From positions 1 through 20,210 of IMG/VR virus record IMGVR_UViG_3300009496_000110: a stretch of DNA of 20,210 nucleotides; one strand, 5' to 3'. A model generated the notes under the pieces. That model did not search any database and had not been told where the DNA came from. It worked only from the letters and a program-made list of their open reading frames with translations. The stretch's first letter is position 1; each line of letters begins with the position of its first letter. Both the position numbers and the translations under genes were made by a program. This document shows, piece after piece, positions 134 through 4,187 of this stretch. The stretch comes from a virus.

Positions 134-203
134 TTGTTTTAACCCCTGTTTCACTACTTATATTTTTGGCTCTGTTTGCTGGCGATTGTTTAACCTGTTT
201 CCC
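134..203 (+). repeat. Imperfect direct repeat ATTGTTT(T)AACC(CC)TGTTTC
   Basis: The copy at about 134-152 and the copy at about 185-203 share ATTGTTT, AACC and TGTTTC in the same order. They differ by three inserted bases and their starts are about 51 bp apart. Two further CCTGTT words lie at 31-36 and 89-94. They could be binding sites for an initiator or regulator; there is no direct evidence for that. Confidence 0.4.
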
Positions 204-210
204 GTAATGG

Positions 211-392
211 AGAGACAACAGAGAGACAACAGAGAGACAACAGAGAGACGATAGAGAGACGATAGAGAGACGATAGAGAGACGATAGAGAGACGATAGAG
301 AGACAGCAGAGAGGCAGCAGAGAGGCAGCAGAGAGGCAGCAGAGAGAGAAAGCAGAGAGGCAGCAGAGAGGCAGCAGAGAGAGAAAGCAGAG
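211..392 (+). repeat. Purine-rich tandem array, sixteen 11-13 bp units
   Basis: Sixteen head-to-tail units can be counted. There are three AGAGACAACAG (211-243), five AGAGACGATAG (244-298), one AGAGACAGCAG (299-309) and three AGAGGCAGCAG (310-342). Then come one AGAGAGAAAGCAG (343-355), two AGAGGCAGCAG (356-377) and one AGAGAGAAAGCAG (378-390). Positions 321-355 and 356-390 form a perfect 35 bp higher-order duplication. The 11 bp period is close to one helical turn, so each unit presents the same face of the DNA. The unit length is not a multiple of three, and no + strand frame stays open through the array. A replication origin, packaging or protein-binding array are all possible; the function is unknown. 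Confidence 0.93.
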
Positions 393-400
393 TCTAAAGC

Positions 401-426
401 GTGACCCAAATCCTGGTTCTGGTCAC
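401..426. promoter_or_regulatory. Inverted repeat GTGACC-N14-GGTCAC, possible operator
   Basis: The arms 401-406 and 421-426 are perfect 6 bp inverted copies, and their starts are 20 bp apart, about two helical turns. The site lies just after the tandem array and about 85 bp before the first gene. This placement suits a dimeric regulator controlling the early operon. No convincing -35/-10 pair was found beside it, so the regulatory role is inferred from geometry only. Confidence 0.35.
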
Positions 427-509
427 ATTATAGCACTGGGGAAGTTGAACCATTGGGGAGAATGTTGTCAAATGCTGCGGAACATTTAACCAATAGAGGT
501 ATAAAGACA

Positions 510-2171: not shown

Positions 2172-2365
2172 TTTTATTTAACAGAAGTTTGAACATAGAA
2201 CTGATTAATGGTTGCGGTATTTTCCTGGAATTTTCCGACAGCCGACCAGTGTGGTGTTTTAACAAAGACACTGAGGAGACTTACACAATGCCATTTGAGG
2301 GTGTGTTATTAATGCTGCCCTTTATGCTAATCAGCTATGGCAGAGTTTATGAGGAGATAGAATAG
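2168..2365 (+). CDS. Small early phage protein (65 aa), unknown function
   Basis: The 65-residue protein has a central hydrophobic stretch (about residues 43-57, PFEGVLLMLPFMLISYG) in an otherwise polar sequence. It could be one amphipathic or membrane-associated helix. No signal-peptide pattern is seen and no family is recognised. It starts in an ATGA overlap with the gene before it, behind AAAGGAG at 2151-2157. Its stop codon TAG shares a base with the GTG start of the primase-helicase, which ties it into the replication operon. Confidence 0.65.
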   Translation: MILFNRSLNIELINGCGIFLEFSDSRPVWCFNKDTEETYTMPFEGVLLMLPFMLISYGRVYEEIE

Positions 2366-3981
2366 TGGCTAAAATACACCAACCATGTCCAGACTGTGGC
2401 AGTAGCGATGCGCTACAGATTAACGACAACGGCAGCACATTCTGTCACAGTTGTCACAAATACACGCCCAGCAGCCAAGTCAGCGAGGAGACTTGGGATA
2501 TCTCTGTGCCAGTGTCTACTGAGCCGAAGGCTAAACCAGACTTTAGTGCAGTAGAGAGAACACTAACAACAGGAAACTACCAAGCCATTGTCGATAGAGG
2601 TTTAACGACAGCGACAGCTAAAACCTATGGTATCTTGGATCAGGCAGACAGAACCTATTTCTCCTACCATGACCCAGCAGACGCTAATGTACCCATAGCA
2701 GCCAAGATCAGACTGCCAGACAAAAACTTCTACAATGTTGGCAACTGGGCAGGCACTGGCTTGTTTGGTCAGCAGCTATTCAATGGCGGTGGGAAGTACA
2801 TCACCATCTGTGAGGGTGAGTTTGACGCAGCAGCGGCATACCAGATGCAAGGCAGTAAGTACCCGTGTGTCAGTGTCAGGAATGGTGCTGGCGGTGCGCT
2901 GAAAGACTGCAAGGCTGCCTACGAGTATCTGGATAGCTTTGAGGCGATAGTTATATGCTTTGATGCAGATGAGGCAGGAACAAAGGCAGCGCGAGAGGTT
3001 GCAGAGCTGTTTGGCGGCAAGTCAGCCATTGTGAAGCATACCAACGGCCACAAGGATGCCTGTGACTATCTGAAGGCCAATGATGTTAGAGAGTTTACAG
3101 CAGCGTTCTGGGCAGCAGAGAAGTTTGTACCAGATGGCATCATCAATGGCGCTAGTCTCTGGGACGAGGTAAACAGACCAGTGGAGAAGTCTGCTGTGAT
3201 GTACCCGTGGGAGAGTTTAAACAAGCTAACCTACGGCATCAGAGAGGCTGAGTTAGTCACCATCACCGCTGGCTCTGGACTTGGCAAGTCACAGTTTGTC
3301 AGAGAGATTGTGTGGCATATTCTCAAGCATTCTGAGGAGAACATTGGTCTGCTGTTTCTGGAGGAGAATGCACGAAAGACTGCATTGTCGCTAATGTCTC
3401 TAGCAGCTAACAAGCCATTGCACCTACCAGACGTAGAGAGTACAGAGGAGGAGCGATGGGAAGCGTTTGAGACTACCATGGGCACTAACAGACTCTACCT
3501 GTTCGACCATTTCGGCAGCACCAGTGTTGATAACATTATTGCACGTTGTCGCTACATGGCTAAGGCGCTAGACACTAAGTTTTTGTTCCTCGACCACGTT
3601 AGCATTGTTGTGTCAGCGCAGAGCAATGGTGACGAGCGCAAGGCTCTGGATGAAATCTGCACCAAGCTGAGAATGTTAGTGCAAGAGACAGGCATAACAT
3701 TGTTTATGGTTAGCCATCTAAAGCGACCAGACGGCAAAGGCCACGAGGAAGGCGCTGCTAGTAGTCTTTCACAACTCAGAGGCTCTGCATCCATTGCACA
3801 GCTATCAGACATGGTGATAGGGCTGGAGAGGAACGGTCAGGCTGACGATCCTACAGAGAGAAACACCACCTATGTCAGGGTACTGAAGAACCGCTTTTGT
3901 GGCACTACAGGTAAGGCAGGTGGCTTGCTATTCGACCAGACAACAGGTAGAATGACAGAAATTAGAGAAGAGGGACTGTAA
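2365..3981 (+). CDS. Bifunctional primase-helicase, T7 gp4 type
   Basis: This protein unwinds DNA 5'-3' at the phage fork with NTP hydrolysis and makes the RNA primers for lagging-strand synthesis. Domains in order are as follows. A zinc ribbon has C8, C11, C27 and C30. A TOPRIM primase fold has E150 in CEGEFDA and D200/D202 in CFDADEAG. A RecA-like helicase of the DnaB/T7 type has Walker A GSGLGKS at about 303-309, the catalytic-Glu segment GLLFLEEN and Walker B FLFLDHVS. The late motif GSASIAQLSDMVIGLERN is also present. At 538 residues it is close to T7 gp4 (566). The start is GTG, overlapping the preceding TAG. It lies two genes upstream of DNA polymerase, as a replisome partner. All catalytic residues I can check are present. 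Confidence 0.96.
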   Translation: MAKIHQPCPDCGSSDALQINDNGSTFCHSCHKYTPSSQVSEETWDISVPVSTEPKAKPDFSAVERTLTTGNYQAIVDRGLTTATAKTYGILDQADRTYFSYHDPADANVPIAAKIRLPDKNFYNVGNWAGTGLFGQQLFNGGGKYITICEGEFDAAAAYQMQGSKYPCVSVRNGAGGALKDCKAAYEYLDSFEAIVICFDADEAGTKAAREVAELFGGKSAIVKHTNGHKDACDYLKANDVREFTAAFWAAEKFVPDGIINGASLWDEVNRPVEKSAVMYPWESLNKLTYGIREAELVTITAGSGLGKSQFVREIVWHILKHSEENIGLLFLEENARKTALSLMSLAANKPLHLPDVESTEEERWEAFETTMGTNRLYLFDHFGSTSVDNIIARCRYMAKALDTKFLFLDHVSIVVSAQSNGDERKALDEICTKLRMLVQETGITLFMVSHLKRPDGKGHEEGAASSLSQLRGSASIAQLSDMVIGLERNGQADDPTERNTTYVRVLKNRFCGTTGKAGGLLFDQTTGRMTEIREEGL

Positions 3982-4187
3982 TGAGATGCGTAGCGTGTAA
4001 CAAGGCTTTATCGGACTTTGAGTCCACCAGGAAATCTGCAATCAGCGGAGAATACTTAGATATGTGCAATGATTGCTACTTTTACACTGACGATATAGAT
4101 ACCATTGACCGCGAAGACTTACGGTCAGAATCAGACACAGTAATGGAGAGTCAAGAATATGAGCAAGATTGGAAGCTGGATAGCTGA
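3981..4187 (+). CDS. Small CxxC zinc-binding phage protein
   Basis: The 68-residue protein has two CxxC pairs, C3/C6 and C29/C32, separated by FESTRKSAISGEYLD, followed by an acidic tail. The four cysteines can bind one zinc ion in a ribbon-like fold. Proteins with this start (MRC-x-x-C, then TRKSA-x-SG) are familiar next to replication genes in T7-like phages, but I know no proven function. The ATG shares one base with the stop of the primase-helicase (TAATG), which suggests translational coupling and a role linked to replication. Confidence 0.82.
   Translation: MRCVACNKALSDFESTRKSAISGEYLDMCNDCYFYTDDIDTIDREDLRSESDTVMESQEYEQDWKLDS

Follow-up and report, generated by a model that had tools for sequence, protein, structure and literature searches.

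Conspicuous repeats beside replication genes invite a functional explanation, and a GA-rich tandem array near one end of a marine phage contig raises the question of whether it is a constrained site, such as an origin, a packaging site or a set of protein-binding sites, or a spacer in which repeats have come and gone. The window analysed here, an entire linear IMG/VR record of 20,210 bp, is a fragment, 20.2 kb long, of the genome of a marine phage that is uncultured and related to HTVC103P. It encodes a primase-helicase, a family-A DNA polymerase and a ribonucleotide reductase, with structural proteins on the opposite strand. The nearest cultured relatives are the Pelagibacter phages HTVC103P and HTVC104P, whose DNA polymerases are ~51% identical to that of the window. 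Uncultured 'group IV' phages related to HTVC103P have been described with a GC content of 31.9-44.4% and hosts reported as unknown (PMC8528129); the window appears to resemble them in its GC content (45%) and in lacking a host assignment. It differs from group IV and the HTVC103P-type pelagiphages in that its own group has no cultured representative.

Relatives were retrieved by a scan with the primase-helicase, which gave 80, and more were added by pattern scans for two landmarks of the array interval, the 20-bp motif M and the interrupted palindrome P (Table 1). All phage sequences are metagenome assemblies and partial contigs, so that copy numbers within repeats are approximate. In the tblastn alignment, TerL of one contig (L049) is interrupted by a single internal stop that its otherwise identical neighbours do not have; an error of sequencing or assembly is the probable cause.

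The array and its setting

The relatives share a common frame. A terminator-like hairpin (CCCAGTGTAACAGCTGGGCTTTTTT) is followed by a conserved non-coding stretch, motif M, a variable spacer, palindrome P, the promoter-like TTGAAC-N17-TCWAAT, the sequence TTTAACCAATAGAGAGAG and then the first gene. The original prediction set the array directly before the early genes. It does precede the replication-gene operon, but these are not the first early genes: the left end of the window's contig is cut, and relatives carry 2-3 kb more early genes, together with the hairpin, ahead of the interval.

Table 1. Features of the array interval and its surroundings (window coordinates)
Feature	Position	Strand	Basis or remark
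Motif M, ACCTGTTTCCCGTAATGGAG in the window, consensus ACCTGTTTCCCGTAATAGAG; left landmark of the interval	193..212	+	20 bp, conserved across relatives
Variable-number GA-rich tandem array, 16 units (14 of 11 bp, two of 13 bp)	210..392	+	TRF, unit split, Markov controls, homologous intervals in 32 relatives
35-bp higher-order unit (11+11+13), copy 1	321..355	+	Identical to 356-390
35-bp higher-order unit, copy 2	356..390	+	Identical to 321-355
Interrupted palindrome P, CTAAAGC-GTGACC-N14-GGTCAC-ATTATAG; putative operator	394..433		Arms kept in relatives
Promoter-like TTGAAC-N17-TCAAAT, putative promoter of the operon with the replication genes	445..473	+	Conserved in 32 aligned relatives
Start-associated sequence TAACCAATAGAGG, variant of TTTAACCAATAGAGAGAG	489..509	+	Repeat family found in the window
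First gene after the promoter, 100 aa	510..812	+	ORF list
Primase-helicase gene	2365..3981	+	Query used to retrieve relatives

A single array was detected in the window by TRF (210-382, period 11, 15.5 copies). Its units comprise, in order, three GAGAGACAACA, five GAGAGACGATA, one GAGAGACAGCA and three GAGAGGCAGCA, then one 13-bp GAGAGAGAAAGCA, two further GAGAGGCAGCA and a final 13-bp unit. Within a 160-bp stretch, 146 positions equal the base 11 bp further on; the same count reached at most 68 in 300 second-order Markov sequences and at most 96 under a model trained on the array itself. The head-to-tail repetition is far beyond chance, and the predicted sixteen-unit structure, with three block types and a perfect 35-bp duplication, is borne out. 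The array is also non-coding, as had been proposed, since the lengths of the homologous intervals take all three values modulo 3; the minus-strand ORF that runs over it is of low complexity. The further suggestion that the array is helically phased is not supported. The two 13-bp units shift the phase, so that phasing is not strict even internally, and spacer lengths in the relatives follow no clear 10.5-bp phase (Rayleigh p ~0.14), a weak one at 11 bp (p ~0.04) and a stronger one at 10 bp, all calculated with relatedness ignored.

An RNA reading of the array was rejected, because an Rfam covariance-model search of the window gave no match and single-strand folding of the array and palindrome was no better than that of shuffles, save for a weak value for the array's pyrimidine strand. 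A leader or ribosome-binding array was likewise discarded, given that the array lies upstream of the conserved promoter. A genome-wide AGAGAG signal was dropped as well; the enrichment is mild, falls in early coding sequence (19 against 11.8 expected) and was reached by 4 of 200 shuffles.

Conservation is found instead on either side of the array. The GTGACC/GTCAC arms of P are retained across the aligned relatives, and P folds no better than shuffles, a result more in keeping with an operator in DNA than with a hairpin. In 30 spacers it is separated from the -35 box by 44-45 bp, and in two others (L063 and L123) by 34 bp, one turn less. A distance that is fixed or shorter by one helical turn is the pattern expected of an operator facing polymerase, whereas the distance from M to P follows no such rule. 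TTGAAC and TC.AAT are invariant in 32 aligned relatives; a generic sigma-70 consensus scan did not call this element. P would thus be a candidate operator and TTGAAC-N17-TCWAAT a candidate promoter. Further downstream, TTTAACCAATAGAGAGAG (485-504) recurs before two other early genes (841-860 and 1185-1204). The 5'-AGAGAGG of the start-associated sequence may pair with the 3' end of 16S rRNA, and the repeat could act as a linker for gene exchange. The first gene product has no PHROGs hit, and the alignment has differing start regions here, unrelated small genes filling this position in close relatives.

A spacer of free length and rapid turnover

The search of relatives that the original prediction called for did find arrays at the same place, albeit in some relatives only. 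Between M and P lie 25 to 191 bp in 32 distinct relatives. Arrays of 11-bp units fill this interval in some phages and a 22-bp array does so in another; the remainder have AG runs or unrelated sequence there. Turnover is rapid. L012 and L014, with helicase genes 99.9% identical, differ by exactly one 11-bp unit, and L009 and L103, identical throughout the helicase gene (100%), differ in spacer length (188 and 57 bp). Between the window and L085 the flank is 98% identical, yet their unit order differs throughout, and L085 has a 33-bp higher-order unit. In a clade ~82% identical in helicase, L035 carries five copies of a 22-bp unit; its neighbours have no 22-bp array, showing either AG runs or an unrelated sequence that contains CCCTATG modules. 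The unrelated contig L084 has a GA-rich 11-bp array of its own.

The spacer is minimal in L039, L094 and L104. In the shortest spacers the sequence is GAGGGACTACAGAGAGAGCTATAAC, apparently the seed of the 11-bp arrays, and a seed of the same form adjoins M in the L117/L136/L141 family, which is without the palindrome. A second short motif, AGTCCCTATGAG[GT]ACCG, is contained in 22 viral contigs and takes shifting positions in the interval: inside the array in L012, L013 and L014, before M in L035 and L049, and after M in L060. Other tandem arrays occur in L029, a relative without M, at 3942-4060 and 667-788, with 26-bp and 17/51-bp units rich in AGAGACTTTAAAG.

One-unit differences, re-arranged arrays and variable spacers find their simplest account in slippage or unequal exchange within a length-tolerant spacer. 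The array is most likely (probability roughly 0.7) a lineage-specific variable-number tandem repeat, grown by slippage or recombination in a non-coding spacer of free length and having no dedicated function beyond that of a GA-rich spacer. Its units run head to tail, their number differs between close relatives and the interval is non-coding. A short GA-rich seed (M and GAGAGACTACA-GAGAGAG), still present in relatives with 25-35 bp spacers, would have expanded by replication slippage or unequal recombination into an array placed between single-copy M and the operator-like palindrome with its replication-operon promoter. Since the M-to-operator distance is free, gains and losses of whole units would be tolerated and units homogenised in blocks. 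Slippage as the mechanism, and near-neutrality, are what we infer from these patterns; a counter-point to neutrality is that the 11-bp unit occurs in several lineages.

The predicted block-wise homogenisation agrees with the one-unit differences between near-identical phages and with re-arrangement under 98% identical flanks. Its companion claim, that the array is constrained as an origin, packaging site or titration array, is not supported: neither unit sequence nor unit number is conserved, and sister phages manage with a 25-bp spacer or unrelated sequence. It is M and the palindrome/promoter that are conserved, and the array is best not read as a set of fixed phased binding sites, an origin or a packaging site. 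A looser variant would have the GA-rich units weakly bind a regulator or replication protein, their copy number tuning the promoter or titrating the protein. The array does sit just upstream of the putative operator and promoter with a period close to a helical turn, and all 32 spacers keep a GA-rich core. However, the bases between cores differ between lineages (AACA, GATA, AGCA, CACT, CAAT), relatives with the same promoter have no array and the 13-bp units break the phase, so that such an accessory role appears unlikely. At least one AGAGAG is present in each of the 32 spacers (64.9 per kb; mean purine fraction 0.69), which may reflect mild selection on composition, though not on length; shared descent would also explain it.

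Assembly from short reads that cross a repeat could also have given rise to false unit counts and to the exact 35-bp duplication, and contigs L007/L085 and L010 do end within the array, as repeats break assemblies. Many independent contigs nevertheless carry arrays at this place that differ, are self-consistent and have both flanks, and an assembly artefact is scarcely credible.

Motif M in phages and bacteria

M matters more than the array beside it. Thirteen phage contigs with M, the window among them, each have a single copy at up to three mismatches. Because loci found through a 16-mer of M match by construction, its conservation was measured anew using just those loci retrieved by helicase. 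Of these 39, 28 carry M at 0-3 mismatches (16 of them exactly), no locus shows 4-5, and 11 are at background, two of which (L007 and L042) start after the place of M. Scrambled-motif controls never fell below five mismatches. Every contig with the full 20-mer encodes proteins of the window's phage group, and among them the helicase is as little as ~49% identical to that of the window; where the 16-mer lacks its extended flanks, the contig encodes no marker protein of the group, and such matches are taken as chance. The phage record collection contained no M, nor did a text search return a match.

Near-exact as M is whilst the helicase diverges, its placement shifts. It lies within genes in some relatives, encoding QPVSRNR in the L020-L025 group, and outside them in others; the L110 group has it in reverse orientation, and in the L117 group a different promoter follows it. 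A 20-bp sequence that stays nearly unchanged, on either strand and in differing genes, across helicases only ~49% identical must reflect selection at the DNA level or copying between phages. An apparent enrichment of contig ends upstream of M was set aside, the table having been judged by eye on too few cases. Assembled contigs mostly run through M.

One exact match was found among 84,980 species genomes, in HTCC2207, a SAR92 gammaproteobacterium. Here a 415-aa gene with a match to phrog_4756 ends ~70 bp before M; family-A polymerase palm motifs were read by eye in its product, and this replicase-like gene follows a tRNA-Arg and an integrase-like gene. The 112 genomes of the same family hold just one further M (one mismatch), adjoining what by eye is a remnant of the 3' end of an HTCC2207-type replicase; M also lies in L153 (2736-2755) and in L172. 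A sample of 369 genomes drawn from across the class gave no other M, the family's other replicase copies are without M, no phage contig was found to encode this replicase and no repeat was found flanking the M-bearing element. The last ~38 codons of the replicase also occur as separate fragments (L180-L182, L184-L186), and in G038, G051 and G053 3'-end fragments form direct repeats separated by 9-21 kb, as though this end of the gene served for recombination.

By gene content the HTCC2207 element appears satellite-like. PICMI are small marine satellites of virulent phages (PMC10803314), which it recalls in being small and lying beside a tRNA-Arg with integrase-like and replicase-like genes; it differs in being outside Vibrionaceae, not adjoining fis and having no flanking repeat that could be found. 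M is accordingly a first lead, not a result, towards a host in the SAR92/HTCC2207 family for a phage group whose hosts are reported as unknown (PMC8528129).

As to what M might do, a role as attP of a tyrosine integrase was rejected, since no PF00589 match was obtained in 16 partial phage contigs, the control being detected in 14 of 14 genomes. Under a wider proposal, replication or packaging would start within a region made up of M, the array and the AT-richer block upstream, the array supplying iterons or a zone of melting or cleavage. M occurs once per genome upstream of the replication genes, and in two bacterial genomes it adjoins a replicase gene or its remnant. Against an origin, the cumulative GC-skew minimum lies at a divergent region 1.7-3 kb from M in five of seven loci; in L110 it coincides with a contig end, and in the window, truncated on the left, it lies 40 bp upstream of M. 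Clusters of DnaA-box-like TTATCCACA near the divergent region (L131, 6763-6846; L116, 10500-10648; L118, 6662-6827; L013, 444-475) mark a possible replication origin there in some relatives. Packaging would fit the single copy and the presence of M in a satellite-like element as well, but M does not appear to follow the small terminase: L029, a contig of only 7.3 kb, lacks M despite a TerS 92% identical to that of L053, and L116 and L131 have exact M with TerS 60-67% identical. With the array dispensable where M is retained, and other replicase-bearing elements of the bacterial family without M, the proposal for the combined region is decidedly unlikely.

More tentatively, M may itself be an essential, movable single-copy site acting at the DNA level in replication, packaging or recombination of this phage group; small SAR92-family integrative elements would carry it to parasitise these phages, the GA array being a tolerant spacer between M and the replication-operon promoter.

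Comparison with known repeat systems

The array would represent slippage caught in the act within a phage control region, and it counsels caution in assigning function to conspicuous repeats. Iteron-type origins consist of direct repeats near replication genes, as does the window's array. Its units, by contrast, are not conserved, their number is not fixed, the array is absent in sister clades and no initiator gene was recognised. Minisatellites, or variable-number tandem repeat loci, occur in non-coding DNA, and the array shares with them tandem units of ~11 bp, block homogenisation and whole-unit length differences between close relatives. Unlike them, it is flanked on both sides by conserved cis elements within a regulatory interval of a phage, with a GA-rich seed in every relative examined.
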